Source: a virus. From it: a DNA stretch of 23,128 bases. Position 1 is the first letter of the stretch. Every line of letters begins with the position of its first letter. Of the stretch, positions 6,458 to 21,098 are shown piece by piece. The position numbers were made by a program, and so were the translations under genes. Where the stretch lies: IMG/VR virus record IMGVR_UViG_3300027906_003344, positions 1 through 23,128 of that record; one strand, given 5' to 3'. The notes below the pieces were generated by a model. The model was not told the origin of the DNA. It saw only the letters and a list, made by a program, of their open reading frames with translations, and did no database searches.

Positions 6458-9400
6458 ATGGCTGAATTTAGACTTGGCAGATTAAAATTTAACTGGCGTA
6501 GTGATTGGACTGCGAGTACTGCGTATGTTATTGATGACATCGTAAAGTATGGTGCAAACACTTATGTTTGTAAGACAAATCATACATCTACTAGTAATCA
6601 AAATCAATTTTATGCTTCTGATATAGCAACTAATTGGTCATTACATACTGAAGGTATTGTTAATACTGGAGAATGGCAAGCAACTCATTGGTATAAAGTA
6701 AACGATATATTTAAATATGGTAATACTCAGTATAGAGTAACTACTGGATTTACTTCTGATGCAACATTTAGTGAAGCAAATACAAGTGGTAATGTAGTAG
6801 AATATTTACAGTCATTTAATTATGAAGATACTTGGAATTCTGCCGCACAGTATCAGGATGGAGATGTTGTAACCTATGGTGGTTACACATATGTTTCAAA
6901 GAGTGTTCATACAAATAAGATACCTGCATATAATTTAACAAATGATTGGGATATTATAACTACTGGATTTAATGTAGTTGGTACTTGGGATAATTCAACC
7001 GATTATAAACAAGGTGATGTTGCTTTATATGGTGGATATTCATATGTTGCGATTACTACAAGTGTTAATACAGTTCCAACAACAACAGCTAACTGGAGTC
7101 TAGTTACTAAAGGTCTTGCTTGGAAAGGTAACTGGGATTCTAATGTAACATATCAACTTGGTGATGCTGTAAAGAGATTAAGTAATAGTTATATTGGTGT
7201 TGCTACTGCTGGTAGTATAAACCAAGATCCTTCGACTGATAATAATAGTACTTATTGGAGTATGTTGGCTGAGGGTGCTGCCAACAATGTGATGACCACT
7301 CAAGGTGATATGGTCTACTACACCACTGGTGCAGCAAGATTACCTAAAGGAACTAATGGTCAAACACTTACTATCAGTAGTGAGGGTGTACCTAATTGGG
7401 AAAATAATAGTGTAACACATCCAGTTTATTATGTAACAGAAGAAGGAAGTGATACTAATGATGGTTCAAATATCAGTAGAGCATTCCATTCTGTTAGACA
7501 TGCTTGTTCTGTTGCAGAGGGTCCAGCATCGATTTATGTAAAGGCAGGAAAATATTCTGAAACACTTCCAATTGTAGTTCCAGATAGTGTATCAATTGTT
7601 GGTGATAACTTAAGAACATCTAAGATCTTACCTGCTATTAATTACGCACATACGTTTATAAGTGCTACTGCAGGTGCAATTATTCCTAACGCTGGAACTC
7701 CACTTACACCTGGTGCTGGAACAACTTATGATTCTACAACAGGAGATCTTGTTTTAGAAGTTGGTACTCATAGTTTAACTACTTCTAATACAGTAGAAGT
7801 TAATGGTAACTCATTAACATTTACTTGTGATCAGGATAATCACGCTACTCAACATACTTATCCAAGACCAAAAGATCCAATTTATGGTAATACTGCTATA
7901 CCTATTACTGCAGTAACTGGAACATCAATTACTATAAATGTTGGTAAAGGAAATGCATCTAGACATCAAGATTTAGTATTAGCAGCTGCTCCTACTACAG
8001 TTTCATATGGTTCTTCAATCTTTAATGGTGCTGGAACTAAGTGTGCTGTTATTTTAGATTCAGATTATGCTGAGAAGAAAATTCAAATCCGTAATCTTTC
8101 TGGTGGAGAATGGACAACATCAGATACTTGGGAGAATGGTGGAACGGATATAAACATTACATCTGCGGATACTAGACCTAACGAACATTCAACAATGTTC
8201 CAGTTAAGCAACTCAACGATGCTTAAGGACATTTTGATGGAAGGTTTGACTGGTTTCACTCCAGCAGGTATAGTTACATCTATAACTTGTAGTATTGCTG
8301 GATCAAAAGTAACTGGTTCAGATCTTTTCCCTGACTTAGTTGGTACAACTGTAACTGGTTCTGGTGTTTCAACTGGAACAAAGGTTAGTGGATTTATTGA
8401 TTCAACTACTATAGAGGTTGATAAGCAACAAAATCTTGGTGCAACTGCATTAACATTTACTGCTAATCAATATGATCCTAATAATGCACATATTAAAGGT
8501 GTATTCGTTACTCTAAACCCAGAAAGTAGAGTTATTAAATCACCATACGTATCAAACTGTTCTTGTAAATCAGTTAAAGGTATTGGTGCAATTGTAGATG
8601 GTGGAATTCATAGACAATTTGTAGATGGAACTGCAACACCTTCTAACAAATCTATCGTGTTTGACTCATTTACAAACATTCACGATGAAGGAATGGCATT
8701 CTGGATAACAGATGGTGCTGTGGCAGAAACAGTTTCTTGTTTCACATACTATAACCATATAAGTTATGCTGCTACTCGTGGTGGAAGACTTAGATCTCTT
8801 GTTGGAAACAGTTCATGGGGTAAGTATGGTGTTGTAAGTTCTGGATTCAGTCCACTTGAAAAGGCAAGAGAGGGTTATTTGGAAGGATTAGTTCTTCAAT
8901 ACGATCCTGATAGTATGAGTGGAACAGGTTTTACTGTTGGAGAAAGAATTAGAGGTAACACTTCTGGTGCTTGGGGATATATTAATTCAGTACAAGGAAC
9001 AACTCAAGAGAAGATATATTATTCATTAATTAGTGAAGGTGCAGTTGGAGTTGGCACAGGATTCGCAGCTGGTGAAACAATCACTGCACAAACTTCAGGT
9101 ACAACTGCTCCACTTCTCGCTAATACAAGTGCAAACGAAGGACAATCTGGACGAGTTCTTGTATTGGCTGGATTAGGAACATCTCCAACGCTTGAAGTTA
9201 ACGGTAGTATTGAATTCATTACTGGATTAGGTAATGGTGGATATAATAGTGATAATACTACTGGTGCTGATCCGTTTACATTTGTGATTTCAGGTGTAAG
9301 TCAGATAGGTCCCCAAGGTAAGGGTAACGTGCAGATTGATAGGGGACAGTGGACTACTACTGGTGCTGCTCATACTGGTGGAAATACAACTTTTGTTAAG

Positions 9401-10414
9401 TATCCAGTTCAAGGAGGTACATTTACACTATTGACTCCAGCAACTGATGCTGATACTACATTTAGTACAAGTACTATTAGTGGATTCAACCCTGGCGAAT
9501 ATTGCTTATCACCTACAAACGAACTTTGTAAGATTGCAAGTTTCCCAACTGCAAACTCTATGAATATCACTAGAGCACAGGATGGTGCTGGTATTGCTAC
9601 TGCATATGCTATTGGAACACAGTTTACTTCAATTGGAGCAACTAGTTATATTGGTTCCGCTGAAGCTTGGAAAGATTTTACTGGTGTTGCTACTGACTTT
9701 AGAGCAACTATCTCAAATAGATTTGAAGATTCTGTTGGTAGTTACGTTAAGATAGATGATGAATTTACAAAAGTAACTGGTGTTACTACTGATACTTATG
9801 GTACTACTACTGTAACTCTTGTTGAAGAGAAAGCTGCTAAAGGTTTCGATGAACAGGATATCAAGATCCGTTACATCTTCAGTCAGGCAAGATTAACTGG
9901 ACATGACTTCCTACAAGTAGGAACTGGTGGAACAGCAACAACTAATTGGCCTGATGTTCCAACACAAGACCCTGTTCAAACACAGGAAATTACAGAAGAC
10001 TTCCCAGGAAGGGTATTCTATGTTTCTACTGATGAACAAGGTAACTTTAGGGTTGGTAAGTACTTCCGTGTTAACCAGGCAACTGGTGCTGCAACACTGA
10101 ATGCTAACAGTTTCGATCTATCTGGTTTGACTTCAATTCGATTGGGTTCAATCGGTGCTCAGTTAGGTGCTCAAGTTAATGAGTTCTCAACTGACGGAAC
10201 GATGTCACAGAATAGTAATGAGAAAGTGCCGACACAAGCTGCTGTTAGAACTTATGTTCAGACAAAAGATAATGAGCATTTGATAATGGCTCAAAATGCA
10301 GCAAACTTAGGTATATCAACTGCAGTATCACATGCTAATGCTGGTATAACCACTTTAACAAATACTACAACTAATGCAATTCAGATTTCTGAATTCTTTG
10401 TTGGACAAATTTAA
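6458..10414 (+). CDS. Large tail-fibre protein with carbohydrate-binding-like repeats and a beta-helix-like region
   Basis: This is a 1318-residue protein. Residues about 14-272 hold five repeats of roughly 50 residues with the pattern W-x(5-6)-Y-x(2)-GD-x-V-x-YGG-x-x-Y-x(n)-W, for example TDYKQGDVALYGGYSYVAIT. This resembles the small carbohydrate-binding modules of the CBM5/12 type. Residues about 281-313 carry a fibre motif (GDMVYYTTGAARLPKGTNG). From about 322 the segment YYVTEEGSDTNDGS, with IYVKAGKYSETLPI and VSIVGDNLR, matches the start of right-handed beta-helix or pectate-lyase-like domains. The C-terminus (GRVFYVSTDEQGNFRVGKYF, ending in a helical tail) is typical of long cyanophage fibres. 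The leader is A-rich, with only a distant AGGA at 6440. Probable receptor-binding or tail/baseplate fibre; no enzymatic residues can be claimed. Confidence 0.75.
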   Translation: MAEFRLGRLKFNWRSDWTASTAYVIDDIVKYGANTYVCKTNHTSTSNQNQFYASDIATNWSLHTEGIVNTGEWQATHWYKVNDIFKYGNTQYRVTTGFTSDATFSEANTSGNVVEYLQSFNYEDTWNSAAQYQDGDVVTYGGYTYVSKSVHTNKIPAYNLTNDWDIITTGFNVVGTWDNSTDYKQGDVALYGGYSYVAITTSVNTVPTTTANWSLVTKGLAWKGNWDSNVTYQLGDAVKRLSNSYIGVATAGSINQDPSTDNNSTYWSMLAEGAANNVMTTQGDMVYYTTGAARLPKGTNGQTLTISSEGVPNWENNSVTHPVYYVTEEGSDTNDGSNISRAFHSVRHACSVAEGPASIYVKAGKYSETLPIVVPDSVSIVGDNLRTSKILPAINYAHTFISATAGAIIPNAGTPLTPGAGTTYDSTTGDLVLEVGTHSLTTSNTVEVNGNSLTFTCDQDNHATQHTYPRPKDPIYGNTAIPITAVTGTSITINVGKGNASRHQDLVLAAAPTTVSYGSSIFNGAGTKCAVILDSDYAEKKIQIRNLSGGEWTTSDTWENGGTDINITSADTRPNEHSTMFQLSNSTMLKDILMEGLTGFTPAGIVTSITCSIAGSKVTGSDLFPDLVGTTVTGSGVSTGTKVSGFIDSTTIEVDKQQNLGATALTFTANQYDPNNAHIKGVFVTLNPESRVIKSPYVSNCSCKSVKGIGAIVDGGIHRQFVDGTATPSNKSIVFDSFTNIHDEGMAFWITDGAVAETVSCFTYYNHISYAATRGGRLRSLVGNSSWGKYGVVSSGFSPLEKAREGYLEGLVLQYDPDSMSGTGFTVGERIRGNTSGAWGYINSVQGTTQEKIYYSLISEGAVGVGTGFAAGETITAQTSGTTAPLLANTSANEGQSGRVLVLAGLGTSPTLEVNGSIEFITGLGNGGYNSDNTTGADPFTFVISGVSQIGPQGKGNVQIDRGQWTTTGAAHTGGNTTFVKYPVQGGTFTLLTPATDADTTFSTSTISGFNPGEYCLSPTNELCKIASFPTANSMNITRAQDGAGIATAYAIGTQFTSIGATSYIGSAEAWKDFTGVATDFRATISNRFEDSVGSYVKIDDEFTKVTGVTTDTYGTTTVTLVEEKAAKGFDEQDIKIRYIFSQARLTGHDFLQVGTGGTATTNWPDVPTQDPVQTQEITEDFPGRVFYVSTDEQGNFRVGKYFRVNQATGAATLNANSFDLSGLTSIRLGSIGAQLGAQVNEFSTDGTMSQNSNEKVPTQAAVRTYVQTKDNEHLIMAQNAANLGISTAVSHANAGITTLTNTTTNAIQISEFFVGQI

Positions 10415-10427
10415 AGTTAATTACATC

Positions 10428-10435
10428 TATAAATA
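10428..10435 (+). promoter_or_regulatory. Late promoter (perfect TATAAATA)
   Basis: An exact TATAAATA stands in the 48-base gap between the large fibre gene and the ATG at 10463, 27 bases ahead of it. The same spacing recurs at 19274/19308. Confidence 0.75.
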
Positions 10436-10462: not shown

Positions 10463-10783
10463 ATGGCATCTGGTATTTTAGGACAGTCTGCTCTAGCTGC
10501 TTCAACCAATACAACAGTATATACGGTTCCATCAGCAACTCATGCAGTTGTCAATATTAGCGTAGTGAATCGAAGTGCAGCTGCTGCAGCTCCTTTTAGA
10601 CTAGCACTATCAACAACTGGTTCTCCAGGTAATGCAGAGTGGATTGAATATGATGTATCTATTCCCAAGAACGGTGTTCTTGAGAGAACAGCAGTTTCAT
10701 TAAACGCAGCTAAGAATATAGTAGCATACACTACTTCGTCTGATGTAAGTGTAAGTGTATTTGGCATTGAACAGGCAGTTTAA
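10463..10783 (+). CDS. Small beta-domain virion-type protein
   Basis: A 106-residue protein. The sequence alternates strand-like segments (TVYTVPSATHAVVNISVVNRS, FRLALST, IEYDVSIPKNGVLERT, VSVSVFGIEQ), which suggests a compact beta sandwich. The same layout occurs twice at the N-terminus of the 497-residue protein at 19308 (for example QALYTAPAGSESKVTVSICN, EYLDFGFNIGPGQTYTR, KVTFLCHG), so it appears to be a free-standing copy of a domain used in a larger structural protein. It is read from the perfect late promoter at 10428. It has an A-rich leader and no Shine-Dalgarno. A structural role is inferred; it could decorate or trimerise fibres. Confidence 0.65.
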   Translation: MASGILGQSALAASTNTTVYTVPSATHAVVNISVVNRSAAAAAPFRLALSTTGSPGNAEWIEYDVSIPKNGVLERTAVSLNAAKNIVAYTTSSDVSVSVFGIEQAV

Positions 10784-10818: not shown

Positions 10819-11874
10819 ATGGCAGCAGATGTATTAACATACAATGCCTTACAGGAAATAAACCAAGAACTAAAGGCTGAATCTGCTGCATTAACAGCAG
10901 GTATATCTTCTGCTAGTGGTGGCGGCGGTGGTGGTGGAGCTGTTGATTACTCCGACCAAAAATTAATTCTTGCTGGTGCTGGTGCTCCTAATAGTGGCCT
11001 ATGGTGTATGATACCAAAAGTAGCTGCTGAAGGTGGTGGTTGGACTGGTGGTTTTAGTGTTTGTGATACAACCTCTTATAAAAGATGTAACGCTCAGTGT
11101 ACTTGGACTGTTCCTGCTGGAGTAACTTGTGCTCGATTCCAAGTTTGGGGTGCTGGTGGTGGATCTGGTACTAGTTGTTGTTGTGGTGGATCACCTAATG
11201 GTGGTAATGGAGCATACGCATCTATTATTATGCCTGTAACAGCAGGTCAAAACTATAATCTTTGTGCTGGTTGTGCTTATTGTTGTTATGCAGAAAGAGC
11301 GCAGATGACAATTGATGGTGAAGCATCATATGTACAAGGACAAGGATTAACTAACTTCTGTGCAGAAGGTGGTGAATCTAATATCTATTGTGAATCTAGA
11401 GAAAGACGACATAAAGCACAGTATGAACAGAATGGATTCTGTGCTTATATGGGATCTTGTATTTGTAATACTGGAACAGATTATTGTTCCGAAGAGCAGC
11501 AAACTGGTGGTTTAGGTCAACCAGATGATCATTATGATATGAATGATCAGGCTACTGCAAACCATAAAACATTCTACGGAGACGGACCAACTGGTACTGA
11601 TGTATGGGGTCTTCCTGGACAATGGGCATACAATAGATATGTTTGTGGATCTAGAGATCACTGTACTTGGTCTCCAGGTGTATATGGATTCCCAACTTCA
11701 TCTTGCTGTTGCTATTGCTTTAGTAATGAGAATGGTGGATGTTGTTTCCAAGCATGTTATTGTGCTCATCAAATTCCTGGTGCTGGTGCATTTGGTTACT
11801 CTACTTGCGGTGGAGACAACCACGGATGTTCCGATGTTGGTAGAATGGGAATGGTATGTGTTTCCTACTTATAA
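10819..11874 (+). CDS. Cysteine-rich virion-region protein 1
   Basis: This 351-residue protein has 31 cysteines, about 9%. Residues about 1-30 are helical (NALQEINQELKAESAAL) and end in a seven-Gly hinge. A domain follows that resembles the opening of the glycine-rich fibre units: CTWTVPAGVTCARFQVWGAGGG, then ASIIMPVTAGQNYNLCAG. Cysteine clusters follow or interrupt it: CCC after GSGTS, the motif CAGCAYCC, and near the C-terminus SSCCCYCF, GGCCFQACYC and GDNHGC. The paralogue at 12591 shares the layout. AGAGGT at 10806-10811 is a good ribosome site 7 bases ahead of the ATG. The stop overlaps a perfect late promoter. Disulfide bonding or metal binding is possible; no known enzyme motif is seen. 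Probably a fibre or adhesin tip. Confidence 0.7.
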   Translation: MAADVLTYNALQEINQELKAESAALTAGISSASGGGGGGGAVDYSDQKLILAGAGAPNSGLWCMIPKVAAEGGGWTGGFSVCDTTSYKRCNAQCTWTVPAGVTCARFQVWGAGGGSGTSCCCGGSPNGGNGAYASIIMPVTAGQNYNLCAGCAYCCYAERAQMTIDGEASYVQGQGLTNFCAEGGESNIYCESRERRHKAQYEQNGFCAYMGSCICNTGTDYCSEEQQTGGLGQPDDHYDMNDQATANHKTFYGDGPTGTDVWGLPGQWAYNRYVCGSRDHCTWSPGVYGFPTSSCCCYCFSNENGGCCFQACYCAHQIPGAGAFGYSTCGGDNHGCSDVGRMGMVCVSYL

Positions 11875-11877
11875 ATA
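11870..11877 (+). promoter_or_regulatory. Late promoter (perfect TATAAATA) overlapping a stop codon
   Basis: TATAAATA overlaps the TAA stop of the cysteine-rich gene (11872-11874) and lies 32 bases before the ATG at 11910. Its position at a gene boundary supports a real late promoter for the next two genes. Confidence 0.65.
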
Positions 11878-11909
11878 ACTAAAAGAAAAAATCAGAGATC
11901 GTTAAAACA

Positions 11910-12587
11910 ATGGCAAACATTACATCATCGTTTACTCAATTACTCCCGACTGAGGAATTCGTTGCTGGTATTTCTACAAATATTACTGGAAGTTATACGT
12001 ATAACGGACCTGAAGAATTTGACGTTTGGGTTGACGACGCTACTGGTTATGTAATTAAGGTGGATGTGTCAACTGCTCCACCTCAAGCAGGATATACTAG
12101 AAAAACTATTAATGCTAAAGATAGTGCTCAACTACCTATGGCATATACATTATCACATCAATTCATTACTAATTATACTTGGACACACACTTATACTGAT
12201 GTAACAATGAGTAATGGTGATGTTTGGAAAAAGATGAACAATCCTGATTTAAGGGATGTATATCAAGTTAAGTGGAATAAGGTTACTAGTAATTGGGAAT
12301 TAGATCAAATACTAAAAAATGTTAAAAATGATAATAGAGATGAAGCAATAAGAAGAAGGGATTATGTTAAAACATATGGTGATCAATATGATTTTGGTGA
12401 TACAGTCAATACTAAAATAGATCATTATATAGCTGGGATAGGAACATATCTTAGTAATAATCCTTACTATGAAACTTGGAAGTATATTACTCTTCCAGCT
12501 TCAGTAGGAACTATACCTAAGATTCCTGCAGATGTTCAAATTGAATTACAAAAAGTATCTATTGCTGGTGTTGGAGGTAATGTTTAA
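11910..12587 (+). CDS. Hypothetical virion-region protein
   Basis: A 225-residue protein with no family recognised. The N-terminal part is strand-rich, with a DVWVDDATGYVIKVDVS segment. The middle has aromatic motifs (NYTWTHTYTD, GDVWKKM, KVTSNWELDQIL). A basic helical stretch follows (EAIRRRDYVKTYGDQ), and the C-terminus is ITLPASVGTIPKIPADVQIELQ. It lies between the two cysteine-rich paralogues and is followed by the second after only three bases. It may therefore work with them, for example as a chaperone or as a partner in one fibre; that is inference from order only. It is read from the TATAAATA at 11870. Confidence 0.6.
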   Translation: MANITSSFTQLLPTEEFVAGISTNITGSYTYNGPEEFDVWVDDATGYVIKVDVSTAPPQAGYTRKTINAKDSAQLPMAYTLSHQFITNYTWTHTYTDVTMSNGDVWKKMNNPDLRDVYQVKWNKVTSNWELDQILKNVKNDNRDEAIRRRDYVKTYGDQYDFGDTVNTKIDHYIAGIGTYLSNNPYYETWKYITLPASVGTIPKIPADVQIELQKVSIAGVGGNV

Positions 12588-12590
12588 AAA

Positions 12591-13679
12591 ATGGATGTAT
12601 TAGTTTATAGTGCTCTGAATGAACAAGCAGCACTAAAAAAAGAAATAGCTGAGAAGCAGCAATGTTTATTTGATCTAAAAGAAAATAAAGGTGCTGGCGG
12701 CGGCGGTGCTGGCGGCGCAGATAACTCCGTTGCTTGTGCTAAAGCATGGTTAGCCGCTGACGGTGGTAATGAGAAAGCGATGTGGCTTTGTCCAGGAGAC
12801 ACTACCAAATGGACTGTTTGGGAAGGAACTGGATGGACTGGAGAAGTAAAAGTTTGTGATAATACTGGAACTTATCGTTGTAATGCTTCTTGTACCTGGA
12901 CTGTTCCTTCTGGTGTAACCAGTATGAGAGTTCAGATGTGGGGTGCTGGTGGTGGTGCTAATAAACCACCTTGCTGCTGTGGACATACACCATTTGGATC
13001 AACTGGTGCTTATGCTTCTGTTATTGTTCCAGTAACTGCAGGTTGGACTTATACCTTATGTGCTGGTTGTGCTTACTGTTGTTACGGATTTACAACTACT
13101 GGTCATAGAAGGTGGAGAGGACAGTGTTCTTACATTCAAGGATGTCATTTCTGTAACTTCTGCGTAGATGGTGGAAGAGGATCTATGGGTAACTGGATGG
13201 CAGATTATGGTCATTTCTGTACTTGTAGAATTGCATATTACACGGGTAATGAAGGATTCCAATTCTGTAACCAAGGAACTGACTGGTGTGCCACAGGACA
13301 ACAGTTTACTAATGAGATTGATTACGTTGCTGGTGCTGGTATTCATGGTGTTCTGAATGATATAGACGAACCAACTGCAGAGAATGTAGTGTATGGTATT
13401 CGTGGTATTTGGCCAAAACAATGTTGGGACGGCAACCATTACGGATATGAAATTAGCGCACCAACTCCTGGATTCCTAACAGGATCTGAAGCTGTTGACA
13501 CAATATGTTGTGTTCAGTATACATCTGGAGTTTGTTGCGGATGTCAATGTTCTGCTTGGAATACTGCTTGCCATCGAGTACCTGGTGCTGGTGGATGGGG
13601 TTCACATGCTATGGGCGGACATAACAGTTTATATGGTGATAGTGGTAAGTTTGGTATGGTTTGGGTTTGCTACAAGTAG
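12591..13679 (+). CDS. Cysteine-rich virion-region protein 2
   Basis: This 362-residue protein has 30 cysteines. It shares with the 10819 protein a helical N-terminus (ALNEQAALKKEIAEKQ), a Gly/Ala hinge, CTWTVPSGVTSMRVQMWGAGGG, a CCCGHTPFG cluster, the identical motif CAGCAYCCYG-type, and the closing VPGAGGWGSH and GMVWVCYK. Extra histidines lie near several cysteines (HFCNFC, HFCTC, CHRVPG). The central 150 residues have diverged strongly between the two copies, so their binding surfaces may differ. GGAGG at 12573-12577 lies 13 bases before the ATG. It follows the previous gene after three bases and is probably translated from the same late transcript. Role inferred as a virion adhesin stabilised by disulfides or metal. 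Confidence 0.7.
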   Translation: MDVLVYSALNEQAALKKEIAEKQQCLFDLKENKGAGGGGAGGADNSVACAKAWLAADGGNEKAMWLCPGDTTKWTVWEGTGWTGEVKVCDNTGTYRCNASCTWTVPSGVTSMRVQMWGAGGGANKPPCCCGHTPFGSTGAYASVIVPVTAGWTYTLCAGCAYCCYGFTTTGHRRWRGQCSYIQGCHFCNFCVDGGRGSMGNWMADYGHFCTCRIAYYTGNEGFQFCNQGTDWCATGQQFTNEIDYVAGAGIHGVLNDIDEPTAENVVYGIRGIWPKQCWDGNHYGYEISAPTPGFLTGSEAVDTICCVQYTSGVCCGCQCSAWNTACHRVPGAGGWGSHAMGGHNSLYGDSGKFGMVWVCYK

Positions 13680-13762: not shown

Positions 13763-14884
13763 ATGAATAAAGCTTTTTTTGTAAACGGTGGAGCAGGGCG
13801 TGTGCTTTGCTCTATGCCAGGTTTAGAGAGGTACGCCAAAACGCATGATGATTTTATAATCATAGCGGAATCTTGGTCTGAATTGTTTCTAAACAATCCA
13901 ATCTTAAGAAATCATGTATATCCTGTAGGACATAAAGATTTATTTGAAGAGAAATTAAAAGATAAGAAAATTGTATCATTAGAACCTTATAGGGTAAATG
14001 AATACTTTACTCAGAGGTGTAATCTTATACAAGCATTTGATATAGAGATTAATGAACTTGATGAGATCCCTGAAACTGGAGAGATAAAATTAGATCTTAA
14101 TAAAGAAGATCAAATTACTGGATACAATCTTGTAGAGGAGGTAAAACAAAATCTTAAACAAGATAAGGTACTTGTTTTCCAACCATTTGGACAGAGTGCC
14201 AAAGCTGAGGGTAATTTCATTTATGATAGTACTGGTAGAAGTTTTGAAGTTGCTAATCTTATTTCATTAATAGAAAAACTTAAAAAGAGTTTTGGTATTA
14301 TATTAATGTCAGAAGTTGAGATACCAGGATGGACGAATATGGGTATCGCTGCTCCTAAAGGAATGGGATTGAATGGTTGGGCAGGAGTAATTAATGCTGC
14401 TGATCATTTCATAGGATGTGATAGTGTAGGGCAGCATCTTGCACATGCTGTAGGAACAAAGGCAACTGTAGTTATAGGATCTACTTATCCTGAAAATATA
14501 TCATATCCAAGCAGTAAGAAATTTACTGTTATTGATAATGGAAAAGATAAAAGGCAATATAGTCCTATTAGAATAACATTTGATATGAATGCGGATAGGA
14601 ATAATGAAGATCTTATGGTATTAAGTTCAGAGACTATTGATAAAATAGTTAAAGGTATAAAGAAACCAGCAGGTAAACAAATACCTATAAAGAGTGCTGT
14701 AGTGCCAACACCACAGAACACTCCACTTATGTCACCTACAAAATTGACTCCAGCAGTATCAAAATCTGTTGCTAGTCTTGATGCTAAACCTGTACGTAAA
14801 TTTGGCGAACCTTTTGTTGTATCTAAAAAGAAGAAAAAGAAACCTATTGAAGAATTGTTAGATATTGAAACAACAAAATCTTGA
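13763..14884 (+). CDS. GT9-like (heptosyltransferase-type) glycosyltransferase
   Basis: A 373-residue protein. The N-terminus (FFVNGGAGRVLCSMPGLERY) and a segment at residues about 217-245 (GCDSVGQHLAHAVGTKATVV, then IGSTYPEN) match the arrangement of GT9 heptosyltransferases. In that family a D-S-x-x-x-HLA-A-G motif binds the ADP-sugar. The last 70 residues are Pro/Ser/Lys-rich, include a run of six lysines, and look unstructured; this tail is not typical of GT9. TGAGGT at 13748-13753 lies 9 bases before the ATG. The next gene starts 10 bases after the stop. A heptose or related sugar acceptor is likely given the ADP-heptose genes nearby, but the acceptor (lipopolysaccharide, virion protein or other) cannot be told. 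Confidence 0.65.
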   Translation: MNKAFFVNGGAGRVLCSMPGLERYAKTHDDFIIIAESWSELFLNNPILRNHVYPVGHKDLFEEKLKDKKIVSLEPYRVNEYFTQRCNLIQAFDIEINELDEIPETGEIKLDLNKEDQITGYNLVEEVKQNLKQDKVLVFQPFGQSAKAEGNFIYDSTGRSFEVANLISLIEKLKKSFGIILMSEVEIPGWTNMGIAAPKGMGLNGWAGVINAADHFIGCDSVGQHLAHAVGTKATVVIGSTYPENISYPSSKKFTVIDNGKDKRQYSPIRITFDMNADRNNEDLMVLSSETIDKIVKGIKKPAGKQIPIKSAVVPTPQNTPLMSPTKLTPAVSKSVASLDAKPVRKFGEPFVVSKKKKKKPIEELLDIETTKS

Positions 14885-14893
14885 GGTTAAATT

Positions 14894-16666
14894 ATGAGTA
14901 TAATTGTATCTTGTTCTCGTGGGCATAATGCCAGTACGACATTATTAGTTAATGGTGAAATTATATTTTACCTTGAGGAAGAAAGACTTTCTAGATGGAA
15001 ACGTGATGGCACTCCCTTATTGGGGTTAACAAAAGTATTTGATTATGTTGATCATATAGATCATTTAGTTATATGCCACACTCATCGTAATGGTCCTCAA
15101 AGTGATTGGACAGGTGAAGATATCTATAGAGGATATATTAGAAAGTTAAGTAGGAAAAAATTTAATTTTAAAGTAACGTGTATTGATAGAATACATCACG
15201 AAATGCATGCAAGTTGTGCATTTATAAATTCTGGATTTGATACTGCTGGTGTATTGATTGCTGATGGTGCAGGTAGTTTCTTGCAGACAACAGTAACTGA
15301 TAAAACAGTTTTTGAATTTGAATCAATATATCATGCAAGAAAACCTCTTGAAATGATTACCAAATATAAGCATTTGGGAACTGATGGATCTGTTGGGTAT
15401 GTCACAGTAGATGAAGGTCGAGAGATATTCATTTCAGAGAATCCTGGTATAGTAAAAGAGTATGAAGCTGTTACTGCGTATTGTGGTTGGTCAACTATTG
15501 ATGCTGGAAAAACTATGGGTCTTTCTCCTTATGGAAAAGAGAATCCTAATATTCCTCCGATGTTTAGAAATGGTTTAGGAAACAGAGATTTGTTTGTTCC
15601 TAATTATCCAAATGGTGCTCATATTATTGATGACAGGTATCCTATTTTACTAGAGGATTCTAATAATCATAAAGAAGATGAATGGACTCAGACTCAAAAG
15701 GATATGGCATATGCTATTCAAAGAGAATCTGAACAAGAAATGATCAAGTTAATACAGAAGACTTATGATATAACTGGTGAAACAAATATAGTTATTTCTG
15801 GTGGGTATGGTTTGAATTGTGTTGCTAACTATAAATTCAAACAAGAGTTTCCTGATTTTAATTTCTTTGTAGAACCTATTTCACATGATGGTGGTACATC
15901 TATGGGTGGTGCTTATTATGTTTATATTAATCAATACTTAAAAAAATATTCACACTTACCACAACTAAAACAACTTGATAACTTATATTATGGACCACAG
16001 TATGATCCTGATGAGTACTTAGGAGATGTTGATGATCAATTTGAAGTTACTGATGCTTCATATGATAGTGTTGCTAAGTTAATTCGTGAAGGTAATATTG
16101 TAACTATCTTCCAAGGAAGATCAGAGGGTGGTCCAAGAGCACTTGGTAATCGTTCTATATTGTTTGATCCTACTATTAAAGATGGTAAGGATATAGTTAA
16201 TAGAGTAAAACGTCGTGAGTTCTTTAGACCATTTGCTTGTTCTATTCTTGCAGAGAAAGTTCATGATTGGTTTGATCTTGCAGGAATGGAAGATGCTCCT
16301 CATATGATGTATGCTGTTAAGTGTAATGAAGGTGTTGAAGATAAGATTCCATCTGTTATTCATGTGGATGGAACTTGTAGGATTCAAACTGTTACTAAGG
16401 AACAGAATGAGCATTACTATAATTTGATTAGTGCATTTGAAAAACTTTCTGATACTCCTATTCTGTTTAATACATCATTTAATCTTGGTGGAGATCCTTT
16501 AGTAGAAACTATTGAGGATGCTATTGATACTTTAGGTAATAGTGATATTAACTATATGTATCTACCAGAGATACAAAAATTAGTTCATGTTCCTTGTAAT
16601 GATCTTAGAGAATTAATTCCACAATCTGATTATTCTCCTGATGTACAGAGATCAGAAGAGTTCTAA
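14894..16666 (+). CDS. O-carbamoyltransferase (NodU/CmcH family)
   Basis: A 590-residue protein of full family length that transfers a carbamoyl group from carbamoyl phosphate, through carbamoyl-AMP, to a hydroxyl, usually on a sugar. The N-terminal Kae1/TsaD-like domain shows SRGHNAS (7-13), EEERLSRWKRD (28-38), the iron-binding-type HHEMHA (about 100-105), GKTMGLSPYGK, ISGGYGLNCVAN, and SHDGGTSMGGAYY (about 329-341). The C-terminal YrdC-like domain shows GRSEGGPRALGNRSIL (about 407-422) and FRPFACSILAE. All the main motifs appear intact. TTGAGG at 14881-14886 is the ribosome site. Its stop overlaps the next ATG by one base (TAATG). The substrate is probably the heptose-containing glycan made by the adjacent enzymes. 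Confidence 0.88.
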   Translation: MSIIVSCSRGHNASTTLLVNGEIIFYLEEERLSRWKRDGTPLLGLTKVFDYVDHIDHLVICHTHRNGPQSDWTGEDIYRGYIRKLSRKKFNFKVTCIDRIHHEMHASCAFINSGFDTAGVLIADGAGSFLQTTVTDKTVFEFESIYHARKPLEMITKYKHLGTDGSVGYVTVDEGREIFISENPGIVKEYEAVTAYCGWSTIDAGKTMGLSPYGKENPNIPPMFRNGLGNRDLFVPNYPNGAHIIDDRYPILLEDSNNHKEDEWTQTQKDMAYAIQRESEQEMIKLIQKTYDITGETNIVISGGYGLNCVANYKFKQEFPDFNFFVEPISHDGGTSMGGAYYVYINQYLKKYSHLPQLKQLDNLYYGPQYDPDEYLGDVDDQFEVTDASYDSVAKLIREGNIVTIFQGRSEGGPRALGNRSILFDPTIKDGKDIVNRVKRREFFRPFACSILAEKVHDWFDLAGMEDAPHMMYAVKCNEGVEDKIPSVIHVDGTCRIQTVTKEQNEHYYNLISAFEKLSDTPILFNTSFNLGGDPLVETIEDAIDTLGNSDINYMYLPEIQKLVHVPCNDLRELIPQSDYSPDVQRSEEF

Positions 16667-17085
16667 TGGTAGAGACTGATATTGTTTGGTGCAACGGCAC
16701 ATTCGATATTCTTCATCCAGGTCACATAGAACTATTCAAGGTTGCTAGATCTCTAGGAAACAAGGTAATAGTTGCTACGGATACTGATGAGAAGATTCGT
16801 ACTGATAAAGGAGAGCATCGCCCTATAAACAATCTTAGTTTTAGGGTTGCTATGCTTGAGGCAATCAAGTATATTGATGTTGTACATACCTTTGGTAGTA
16901 GACAAGAGTTAGAAGATCTAATTGAACTATATCAACCTGATATATTATTACTTGGTGATGATTGGAGGGATGGTGATGTAGTTGGTTGGGAACACGCTAT
17001 GGAAACAAGACATCTTCCTAGAGTTGGTGGATATTCCAGCAGTAATATCATCAAAAAGATTAATGAAAGTACTGTTACTGGGTGA
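16666..17085 (+). CDS. hldC: D-glycero-beta-D-manno-heptose 1-phosphate adenylyltransferase-like protein
   Basis: A 139-residue nucleotidyltransferase. NGTFDILHPGH (10-20) carries the HxGH motif. DKGEHRPIN (47-55), PDILLLGDDW (91-100) and YSSSNIIKKI (123-132) match the C-terminal domain of bifunctional HldE better than glycerol-3-phosphate cytidylyltransferase, which has a similar size. The expected reaction joins ATP and heptose 1-phosphate to give ADP-heptose. The kinase half follows as a separate gene, in the reverse of the order found in the HldE fusion, and starts inside the last 23 bases of this gene. The start codon overlaps the previous stop. A TagD-like cytidylyltransferase activity remains possible; neighbours favour ADP-heptose. 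Confidence 0.75.
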   Translation: MVETDIVWCNGTFDILHPGHIELFKVARSLGNKVIVATDTDEKIRTDKGEHRPINNLSFRVAMLEAIKYIDVVHTFGSRQELEDLIELYQPDILLLGDDWRDGDVVGWEHAMETRHLPRVGGYSSSNIIKKINESTVTG

Positions 17086-17803
17086 TAGTTGTGAGGATGA
17101 GTATATCTATGGCAGATGTACTAGGTTAAGTCCAGAAGCACCTGTACCTATTTTAGATTATGCTAAGATACAGACCAAGTCTGGTATGGCAGGTAATGTA
17201 TGTTTAAATTTACAATCATTTGGACTTGATATTACATTCTTAACTAATTCTGAAAAGATAGTAAAGACTAGGTTTATTGATGAGAGATCAAATCAACATA
17301 TTCTTAGAGTTGATAATGAGGAGAGAGTAAAACCTTTATTAGTTCCTGTTTCTACTTCAAGTTTTGATGCTGTTGTCATATCAGATTATAATAAAGGGTA
17401 TCTATCTACAGAAAAGATATTTGAAATTGTAGAGAGTGCCTCTTGTCCTGTTTTTATTGATAGTAAAAAAACGGTACTTCCTAATAAAGAGAATTGCTTT
17501 GTTAAGATAAATGATGTAGAATATGAGAAGTTACAGCACGATTGTTATATTGATAATCTGATAGTAACGAAAGGATCTGAAGGTTGTATTTACAAACAAA
17601 CTTTATATCCAACAGAGAAAGTAAATGTATATGATGTAGTTGGTGCTGGAGATACTTTCTTAGCAGCACTTGTTTACGGGTATATAACTACTAACAACAT
17701 AGAAGAATCCCTTATGTTGGGAAATAGGGCGGCAGCAATTGCTGTTCAACAATTAGGAACTTACATTTTAACTGAGGAAGATGTCCAAAAGATACTGTAT
17801 TGA
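17063..17803 (+). CDS. hldA: PfkB-family heptose 7-phosphate kinase-like protein (compact)
   Basis: A 246-residue protein. The start at 17063 (MKVLLLGD) is chosen because it matches the first strand of the family; an upstream in-frame ATG at 16982 lies in the preceding gene. Residues 22-33 (LSPEAPVPILDY) and 41-50 (GMAGNVCLNL) match the HldE kinase domain. VISDYNKGYLS (105-115), LIVTKGSEG (166-174) and YDVVGAGDTF (190-199, with catalytic Asp197) are PfkB-family signatures. HldE kinase domains are about 315 residues; the shortfall is largely in the lid and substrate region after residue 60, where about 40 residues are missing. Expected role: phosphorylation of heptose 7-phosphate at O1. It overlaps the next gene by 23 bases. 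Confidence 0.75.
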   Translation: MKVLLLGDSCEDEYIYGRCTRLSPEAPVPILDYAKIQTKSGMAGNVCLNLQSFGLDITFLTNSEKIVKTRFIDERSNQHILRVDNEERVKPLLVPVSTSSFDAVVISDYNKGYLSTEKIFEIVESASCPVFIDSKKTVLPNKENCFVKINDVEYEKLQHDCYIDNLIVTKGSEGCIYKQTLYPTEKVNVYDVVGAGDTFLAALVYGYITTNNIEESLMLGNRAAAIAVQQLGTYILTEEDVQKILY

Positions 17804-18131
17804 TATTGATGGTACGATTTGTACACCAACTGTGGGTAGAGATTACCATAAAGCAGAACCTTGGCAGGATCGTATCTCAAAAATAAATAATTTATATGAT
17901 GAAGGTAATTATATAATATATTTTACTGCCAGAGCGATGGGTAGGTTCTCTGAGGAGGAACATCTTATTGCAGGTGCAAAGGCTTCAGCAGTTCTATTTG
18001 AATTAACTCAGAAGCAACTTGAAGAGTGGGGTGCTAAGTATCATGAATTGATAATGGGTAAACCACATGCTGATTTATTCATAGATGATAAGGGAATGAA
18101 TTGTAATGATTTCTTCACTAATTACAATTAA
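17781..18131 (+). CDS. HAD-superfamily phosphatase, sugar-cluster type
   Basis: A 116-residue protein with the HAD motifs: motif I DIDGT (8-12, nucleophile Asp8 and acid/base Asp10), motif II FTAR (48-51), motif III Lys94 in GKPHADLF, and motif IV IDDK (101-104). The form without a cap domain, with PWQDRISKINNLYDEG and EEWGAKYHEL, matches small phosphatases found in capsule and lipopolysaccharide clusters. In this context it could do the job of GmhB, removing the 7-phosphate of heptose 1,7-bisphosphate, though it is shorter than GmhB and lacks visible zinc-binding cysteines. GAGG stands close to the ATG (17774-17777). The start lies inside the kinase gene and the end overlaps the cupin gene. 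Confidence 0.7.
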   Translation: MSKRYCIDIDGTICTPTVGRDYHKAEPWQDRISKINNLYDEGNYIIYFTARAMGRFSEEEHLIAGAKASAVLFELTQKQLEEWGAKYHELIMGKPHADLFIDDKGMNCNDFFTNYN

Positions 18132-18468
18132 ACATGTACCCAAGGGGTGGGGATATGAGAAATGGATTGCCAATTCTCCAGAGTATTGTGGTAAGTTATT
18201 GTATATTAATAAGACTAAGAGATGTTCTTGGCATTATCATAAATTAAAAGACGAAACATTTTATATTCAATCAGGTAGAATACATTTATTTTATGGTGAT
18301 ACAGATAGTCTTGAAGATGCAAAGACAACTATACTAGAACCTGGTGATAGGTTCCATGTGTATAGAGGATTGAGACATCAGATGGTTGCACTAGAAGATA
18401 CAGAATTATTTGAGTTCTCTACGCAACACTTTGATGATGATTCTTATAGAATCTTTAAAGGAGATTGA
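18106..18468 (+). CDS. Cupin protein, sugar-isomerase-like
   Basis: A 120-residue single-domain cupin. Motif 1 is CSWHYHKLKDETFYIQSG with metal ligands His43, His45 and Glu50. Motif 2 is EPGDRFHVYRGLRHQMV with His91. The opening VPKGWGYEKWIAN resembles mannose-6-phosphate isomerase type II and related sugar cupins. The ATG at 18106 has AAGGGA at 18090-18095 ahead of it and overlaps the phosphatase gene by 26 bases; no later in-frame start is usable. It may isomerise or epimerise a phosphosugar for the cassette; the substrate is unknown. Its 3' end overlaps the convergent hldD gene by 14 bases. Confidence 0.7.
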   Translation: MISSLITIKHVPKGWGYEKWIANSPEYCGKLLYINKTKRCSWHYHKLKDETFYIQSGRIHLFYGDTDSLEDAKTTILEPGDRFHVYRGLRHQMVALEDTELFEFSTQHFDDDSYRIFKGD

Positions 18469-19273
18469 GATATTGTGCTACGCTTACAAATTGATAGTCC
18501 CAAACCTTTTCTGCTATAGTTAGGTATTGATACTTTCCTTTTAGATGTTCTGGGAATGGAATGTATTCTATTTTTCCATTATATTTTGCTGCTATTAATT
18601 CACCAACACCTTTAAAACTAACTGGGCTACTGGTTCCTAAATCATAGATACCAGATGGTTTATCATTATTAAGAACGACTTCTACTATATCTCCAACCCA
18701 GATAAAATCTCTTAGGTACTTACCTGATCCTTCAAACAGTTTTAGTTTACCTGTTTCTTTTATCTGTTGTGTAAACTTATGTACAGGACTTGCTTGATCT
18801 CCTTTTTTATCTTCTCCTTCTCCATATACATTAAAGTATCTGAAACTTTGAATGGATGAGAACTTATCTAGGTTGTCTTGAATGTAATAATCTATCTGTA
18901 GTTTAGTGATAGCATAATAATTTAATGGAGATATTTTATTAGGAGTAGTTGCGAATAAACTCTTTCTAGTATTACCATATACTGATGCAGATGAAGCAAA
19001 CTTAACGTCTATTTGATGCTCTATTGCCTTCTCAAACAACTCTATAGTGAACCAAACGTTCATCCTATGGAGTTTATCTATATCTGTTTCTGTCGTGTCT
19101 GAGATCGCTCCCTGGTGTATTATAAGAGATACTTTATCCCATTCTTTAAAGTATGCTATCCAATCCCAACAATCAGATTCATTAACTGTGACGATCTCCT
19201 CATCAGAATGTTCTATTAGATACTTAAGAAAGTTCTGACCTATGAATCCTTTTGATCCTGTTAGTATAATCAT
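18455..19273 (-). CDS. hldD: ADP-L-glycero-D-manno-heptose 6-epimerase (HldD-type)
   Basis: A 272-residue short-chain dehydrogenase-type epimerase. TGSKGFIG (5-12) is the NAD(P) glycine motif. IIHQGAISDTTETD (51-64) is close to the hallmark HQGACSDTTE segment of HldD. FASSASVYG (92-100) and Y120-x3-K124 give the catalytic set, and RYFNVYGEGEDKKG (145-158), LFEGSGKYLRDF (179-190) and WVGDI follow in the usual order. E. coli HldD has 310 residues, so this copy is somewhat short. It converts the D,D- to the L,D-form of ADP-heptose. It is the only minus-strand gene found and is convergent with the sugar operon. No Shine-Dalgarno is visible, and the plus-strand late promoter motif directly abuts its start codon. 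Confidence 0.85.
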   Translation of the reverse strand: MIILTGSKGFIGQNFLKYLIEHSDEEIVTVNESDCWDWIAYFKEWDKVSLIIHQGAISDTTETDIDKLHRMNVWFTIELFEKAIEHQIDVKFASSASVYGNTRKSLFATTPNKISPLNYYAITKLQIDYYIQDNLDKFSSIQSFRYFNVYGEGEDKKGDQASPVHKFTQQIKETGKLKLFEGSGKYLRDFIWVGDIVEVVLNNDKPSGIYDLGTSSPVSFKGVGELIAAKYNGKIEYIPFPEHLKGKYQYLTIAEKVWDYQFVSVAQYLNLL

Positions 19274-20849: not shown

Positions 20850-21098
20850 ATGAACTTTACGATTTATAGTAGAGAAGGTTGCCCATATTGTGAGAAAGTA
20901 AAAGAAGTAATGCAGTTGACAAAACTAGAACATGTTGTGTATAATCTAGAGAATGATTTTACACGAGAAGATTTCTATGCTGAGTTTGGTCAAGGATCAA
21001 CATTTCCTCAAGTAGTCTGCGATGACACAGGAGAAAGGCAAAAAGTCGGGGGTTGTACAGAAACTGTTCAATTTCTTAGGGAAAAGAAAATCGTTTAA
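20850..21098 (+). CDS. Glutaredoxin
   Basis: An 82-residue glutaredoxin. The active site CPYC is at residues 11-14 after YSREG. TFPQV (51-55) supplies the cis-proline (Pro53), and VGGCTE (67-72) is the glutathione-binding GG motif. Length and motifs are complete. Phage glutaredoxins usually supply electrons to ribonucleotide reductase; no reductase gene lies in the window. It could also affect thiol status of the cysteine-rich virion proteins, but that is speculation. The gene has its own extended -10 promoter and only a weak GAGAA ribosome site. The next reading frame begins inside its last 77 bases. Confidence 0.9.
   Translation: MNFTIYSREGCPYCEKVKEVMQLTKLEHVVYNLENDFTREDFYAEFGQGSTFPQVVCDDTGERQKVGGCTETVQFLREKKIV

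Follow-up and report, generated by a model that had tools for sequence, protein, structure and literature searches.

Receptor-binding proteins set the host choice of phages, yet few have been identified in the T4-like phages that abound in the sea. The closest described system to the locus reported here is the tail fibre of cyanophage Pam3. Pam3 gp24 forms a trimeric fibre docked by long and short N-terminal helices; beyond them come a TNF-like sandwich and, distally, a glycine-rich domain whose loops are hypervariable at their tips (PMC9608196). Virions contained the fibre protein but not its chaperone gp25; the glycine-rich domain contains 39% glycine, and the paper makes no mention of cysteine or disulfide (PMC9608196). 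For the proteins most directly related to those described below, P-SSM2 gp304/gp306 and S-SSM7 gp114-116, annotated as hypothetical, no published function was found in the literature searched. Searches for cysteine-rich cyanophage proteins or for P-SSM2 and S-SSM7 locus tags returned no reports, and no proteomic data were found on any family member, the open proteome papers being without these proteins.

We analysed a window of 23,128 nucleotides, the whole of the stretch taken from IMG/VR virus record IMGVR_UViG_3300027906_003344. Gene content and synteny with P-SSM2, a Prochlorococcus phage of the Kyanoviridae, identify the virus as a P-SSM2-like T4-type cyanophage. Two of its proteins, here called A and B, seem to have a known glycine-rich fold of receptor-binding proteins in a form packed with cysteines, and are encoded in a cassette found in many marine viruses.

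Two cysteine-rich paralogues and the gene between them

The features on which the comparison rests are the following.

10819..11874, + strand: protein A, candidate Cys-rich fibre-tip adhesin (351 aa, 31 Cys; phrog_35878, E 1e-125)
10831..10914, + strand: predicted long N-terminal helix of A, residues 5-32 (AF2 model, DSSP)
11146..11163, + strand: WGAGGG motif of A, residues 110-115 (alignment)
11263..11286, + strand: CAGCAYCC motif of A, residues 149-156 (sequence and alignment)
11910..12587, + strand: candidate tail-fibre-assembly chaperone (225 aa, 0 Cys; iterated HMM and profile-profile comparison)
12591..13679, + strand: protein B, candidate Cys-rich fibre-tip adhesin, paralogue of A (362 aa, 30 Cys)
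13059..13082, + strand: CAGCAYCC motif of B, residues 157-164 (sequence)

An earlier note on this DNA had given 31 and 30 cysteines, or 8-9%, for the two proteins, and these figures are exact: cysteine makes up 8.8% of A, with 30 of the 31 residues lying within positions 82-351, and 8.3% of B (30/362 aa). The remaining ORFs of the window contain 0-2.6% Cys, a small glutaredoxin excepted, and against a background of 1.2% the binomial chance of such counts is about 1e-17 for A and 3e-16 for B. In both, the tip domain consists of 15.6-16.1% Gly and 9.9-11.1% Cys. The two proteins are indeed paralogues, as the note had proposed; they are 41% identical, both match phrog_35878 (function unknown; each E<1e-120) and, more weakly, phrog_4205, and the CAGCAYCC motif that the note had recorded as common to them was found in each. 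Pfam and NCBIfam gave no direct name to either, and neither reached the curated cut-off of PF21722 Gly_rich_2 or matched it even at E<=0.1. Divergence between the copies had been placed mainly in the middle. Identity is about 67% over residues 91-150, 13-30% over 181-300 and 48% at the C-terminal end, so that the claim is broadly right; within the tip domain, 181-300 is the fastest-diverging region in the A/B comparison, and identity in the linker (residues 31-60) is 13%. Fast divergence of 181-300 fits what is expected of a receptor surface.

The AF2 model of A (pLDDT 85, pTM 0.83) predicts that the helix at residues 5-32, which is likely a coiled-coil docking segment, leads into a poly-Gly linker, a pair of short helices (45-53 and 56-64) and then strands, in keeping with the plan of Pam3 gp24. 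The note's glycine-rich opening domain was thus misplaced: the N-terminus is a predicted helix with a short poly-Gly linker, and in the model it is the Cys-rich part that adopts the glycine-rich fold. In Foldseek searches the top match was the Pam3 tail fibre 7ypx, both for A (E 2.6e-7) and for a 262-aa relative of a shorter type (pLDDT 79; E 1.8e-6), with a probability of 1.0 and TM-scores of 0.36-0.50, the superposition being partial; the next matches of both models were the Bxb1 tail tip and then the ALK/LTK glycine-rich domains. A PDB sequence search with the family profiles gave chance matches only. The long type of A and B and the short type are homologous by hhalign (99.3%, E 2.4e-20 over 97 columns). 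The cut-off of PF21722 is passed by S-SSM7 gp114/gp116 and S-CAM1 SXBG_00224, and 9 of 84 long-type members match it at E<=0.01. The WGAGGG motif, a hallmark of the glycine-rich fold, is common to A and its Cys-poor relatives in the alignment.

The ORF at 11910-12587 had been taken for an unrelated protein between the two copies, a description that we revise, as the cassette HMM and a profile match to a chaperone family tie its function to the pair. On its own it matches no family in Pfam, NCBIfam or PHROGs, PF16778 included. Iterated HMM searches showed that almost all intact cassettes contain one homologue of it. In profile-profile comparison it aligned with the S-SSM7 gp118-type proteins (98.1%, E 1e-13, 187 columns), and these match PF16778 Phage_tail_APC and phrog_4912 tail fiber assembly; moreover, a divergent cassette member and S-SSM7 gp118 match the same phrog_9740. 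Neither the ORF nor 27 of its relatives match PF16778, the connection running through homologues alone. These profile matches make it distantly related to the chaperones of tail-fibre assembly, and from this homology we infer a chaperone role. Cassette chaperones contain 0.66% Cys on average.

Conservation and possible pairing of the cysteines

Chance and composition bias were considered as sources of the cysteines and were ruled out, by the binomial test and by Cys-poor Gly_rich_2 proteins. Other Gly_rich_2 proteins of the same genomes, among them P-SSM2 gp126, an S-CAM1 714-aa protein and a 998-aa protein of genome G003, contain 0.1-0.5% Cys and 16-28% Gly, compared with 8-11% Cys and about 16% Gly in the tips; because glycine-rich proteins of the same genomes hold so little cysteine, the enrichment is not one of composition. 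At the Cys columns, the Cys-poor relatives mostly carry Gly, Val, Thr or Ala in the alignment. The earlier note had named poor conservation of the cysteine positions as a refutation of its reading; the positions are instead conserved. About 22 Cys columns are invariant or near-invariant in the short type (64 clusters) and 13 columns are >=80% Cys in the long type (133 sequences). Columns with >=80% Cys account for 87% of all Cys in the short type (64 clusters), but for only 36% in the long type (74 clusters). By alignment, then, the tip cysteines consist of a conserved core and of variable ones.

We determined whether cysteines were gained and lost together, using 133 long-type sequences placed on a tree, residue controls and 3718 Cys pairs. 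A first test on 74 sequences had given nothing significant after correction. In the larger set three pairs were gained or lost together: 97-145 (p 4.6e-7), 178-255 (p 3e-5) and 90-155 (p=3.6e-5; 5 joint changes vs 0.36 expected), the last corresponding in A to these codons.

11086..11088, + strand: Cys90 codon of A, candidate disulfide with Cys155 (co-variation p=3.6e-5)
11281..11283, + strand: Cys155 codon of A, putative partner of Cys90 (co-variation)

The threshold of p<1e-4 was passed by 3 of the 3718 Cys pairs and, when ten other residues served as controls, by 1 pair in 46,132 (Fisher p 0.0016, a value that treats pairs as independent, though they are not); after Bonferroni correction over 3718 pairs, 97-145 alone survived. 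Strands are predicted at 92-97 and 145-150. Since the position sums are nearly constant (90+155=245, 97+145=242), the pairs 90-155 and 97-145 may be two staples across one antiparallel strand pair. Co-variation of the three pairs lends partial support to cross-strand disulfides. The total number of cysteines per protein was even in 66 and odd in 77 members of one set, and even in 72 of 133 in another; single-residue gains and losses were frequent, and most variable cysteines had no visible partner. The equal parity and the many single gains and losses indicate that not all cysteines are in fixed intramolecular disulfides. A disulfide role is supported in part, for a few pairs.

Surroundings and spread of the cassette

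Upstream of, and within, the tip block lie three further features.

6458..10414, + strand: 1318-aa fibre protein (PF02839 CBM_5_12, E 2.4e-13, three stretches)
10428..10435, + strand: TATAAATA, similar to a late promoter and about 34 bp upstream of the gene at 10463
11870..11877, + strand: TATAAATA, similar to a late promoter and about 39 bp upstream of the chaperone gene, overlapping the end of A

The gene at 10463 opens the block that holds A, the chaperone gene and B. All ten matches of the late-promoter core ATAAATA in the window are on the + strand, with none on the - strand, and five of the ten lie 21-39 bp before gene starts; the sites include 386, 5369, 10429, 11871 and 19275. By synteny, the 1318-aa protein is the positional orthologue of the P-SSM2_301 'tail fiber protein'. 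Its CBM_5_12 stretches, of a chitin-binding type, are best near the N-terminus, and it is a possible carbohydrate-binding shaft and a possible carrier of the tips. After the cassette, at 13763-19273, comes a sugar-modification cluster with a GT9-like protein, a carbamoyltransferase, a cytidylyltransferase, a PfkB kinase, a cupin-like protein and an epimerase (- strand); its order is largely kept in P-SSM2, S-SSM7, Sf-FS3 and S-CAM1. A glutaredoxin gene (20850-21098), some 7 kb downstream of the Cys-rich pair, occupies the position of P-SSM2 nrdC; its product is a likelier partner of ribonucleotide reductase than a helper in the folding of the tips.

P-SSM2 and P-SSM5 carry orthologues of both genes, in P-SSM2 in the same gene order as in the window; those of P-SSM2, gp304 and gp306, are about 62% identical to A and B and belong to T4-GC 299/301. 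In S-SSM7, S-SSM6a and Sf-FS3 there are three shorter copies in tandem, of 260-265 aa and with mostly 9-11.5% Cys, and S-CAM1 and S-CAM3 carry further relatives. IMG/VR scans yielded hundreds of relatives, and a scan of bacterial (host) genomes found none. Among the profile matches in the fetched loci, 366 of 368 have 6-13% Cys; the other two are a Cys-poor pair (0.5-0.9%) on another phage contig (L066:4662-6774), relatives of the fold that provide a natural Cys-less control. The distinct cassettes comprise 67 with the order Cys-Cys-Cys-chaperone and 64 with the order Cys-chaperone-Cys (131 loci), together with a few others, many of which are probably cut by contig ends. All annotated cases sit in the tail-fibre region beside the same fibre genes.

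Some cassette-bearing contigs carry psbA. On others (those of loci L046 and L048) the capsid protein is closest to those of PA5oct-like or Phosso-like jumbo phages (66-71%), and on one the prohead core protein is closest to that of phage C48C1 and then of Methylophilales phage Melnitz. Because of these capsid and prohead core proteins the cassette probably extends beyond cyanophages, and the jumbo-phage-like capsids suggest that it spread there horizontally. On contig IMGVR 3300046171_000193 (loci L062, L165 and L166) the gp23 capsid gene is in pieces with stops inside, reflecting an intron, an insertion or an assembly error.

Proposed role and comparison with known systems

We consider it reasonably probable that A and B are receptor-binding fibre tips in which a glycine-rich scaffold has turned cysteine-rich, with disulfides proposed to form after lysis; this reading starts from the computed homology, fold match, cassette, cysteine conservation and co-variation of three Cys pairs. 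The tips would be expressed late, given the TATAAATA elements that precede two of the block's genes by 34-39 bp. A Tfa/TAC-type chaperone, encoded between two tips or, in S-SSM7-type phages, after three, would fold them in the host cytoplasm and be absent from the finished particle. Trimerisation and docking on the fibre would fall to the N-terminal helix, and after it would come a TNF-like beta-sandwich ending in glycine-rich-type loops, as in Pam3 gp24. Mounted on a fibre, perhaps the upstream 1318-aa CBM-bearing protein, the tips would be exposed after lysis; in oxic water the conserved cysteines, with help from the variable loop cysteines, would then form cross-strand disulfides and so make the stem stiffer, leaving the middle region to diverge as receptor surface. 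The adhesin role of the two candidates is well supported by computation, because of the fold, the gene order and the chaperone gene, and to this extent the adhesin reading of the earlier note holds up. Its disulfides have partial support, from the three co-varying pairs (one at p<1e-6, two at p<1e-4); most cysteines show no partner, and the totals show no parity excess. A more speculative reading, on balance doubtful, is that a whole class of phage receptor-binding tips has given up a lattice of hydrogen-bonded glycines for one of cystines. A dedicated chaperone would fold them in the reduced state, oxidation only after lysis would cross-link them into hardened adhesins with swappable loops, and the cassette would have spread among T4-like phages, both cyanophages and others, and PA5oct-like jumbo phages.

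The same adhesin could carry its cysteines in another state. That they mostly stay reduced, as small residues for packing or contact within the glycine-rich loops, or that they link separate subunits (A to B, or the chains of a trimer), is unlikely in our estimation: the lack of a parity excess, the partnerless variable cysteines and the frequent Gly, Val, Thr, Asn or Tyr at Cys columns in relatives agree with it, but three pairs co-vary as disulfides would while other residues do not, and the near-invariance of some 22 short-type cysteines is stricter than simple packing requires. Zn or Fe-S clusters have been claimed for lambda gpL-type tail tips and in the 'Ferrojan horse' idea, and the conserved cysteines of A and B might likewise bind Zn or an Fe-S cluster rather than form disulfides. 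The CxxCxxCC spacing of the CAGCAYCC motif is conserved in the long type, each of its four cysteines being kept in 118-123 of 133 sequences; losses of C90, C152, C155, C156 and C297 tend to coincide, like those of one-site ligands, and one short-type column has changed from Cys to His in 11 of 64. However, the spacing is lost in the short type (VCAAGVYRCC) though the fold is kept, the pair 97-145 was gained as a two-residue event that better fits a disulfide, and 20-30 cysteines per chain far exceed the need of one or two sites. We rate metal binding as rather improbable. Still further from our expectation, and very improbable, is that A and B are non-virion proteins, metallothionein-like or for host takeover, lying among fibre genes by chance. 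Such a role would agree with the lack of any annotation beyond 'hypothetical' and of proteomic data for any member; against it stand the fibre fold match, the Gly_rich_2 relatives and the fixed cassette with a fibre-assembly chaperone homologue in 131 distinct loci.

Under the preferred reading, receptor-binding fibre tips with proposed disulfides, a likely role can be assigned to 'hypothetical' genes in P-SSM2 (gp304-306), S-SSM7 (gp114-118), S-CAM1 (224-226) and hundreds of environmental viruses. If the disulfides are real, the tips would stand out among phage structural proteins by relying on oxidation outside the cell, an idea testable in cultured phage.

Among known systems, the direct relatives are P-SSM2 gp304/gp306 and S-SSM7 gp114-116, with the same locus and the same Cys richness; the S-SSM7 type differs in its length of about 262 aa, its three copies and its chaperone gene, which comes last. 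PF21722 Gly_rich_2 shares with the family the core TVPxGV...WGAGGG...VTxG..Y and the end GxxGxVxIxY, and several relatives pass its cut-off, but A and B fall below it and have Cys in place of Gly, Val and other residues. Chaperones of PF16778/phrog_4912 are matched by S-SSM7 gp118 and Sf-FS3_100, to which family the ORF at 11910-12587 is homologous over 187 columns, though it and its 27 relatives have no match of their own. The ALK/LTK glycine-rich domain has the same TNF-like plus glycine-rich architecture and is matched by both models, but it belongs to an animal receptor and the match is weaker (E ~1e-3). Nearest in overall plan is Pam3 gp24/gp25 (PDB 7ypx/7yfw): as the top fold match of both models it shares the sandwich and distal loops, within the limits of a partial superposition, as well as the N-terminal helical domain predicted in A, and here too a candidate Tfa/TAC-type chaperone gene adjoins the tip gene. 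Unlike Pam3, with 39% Gly in its distal domain, the tip domain here has about 16% Gly and 10-11% Cys, and two or three tip paralogues accompany each chaperone.
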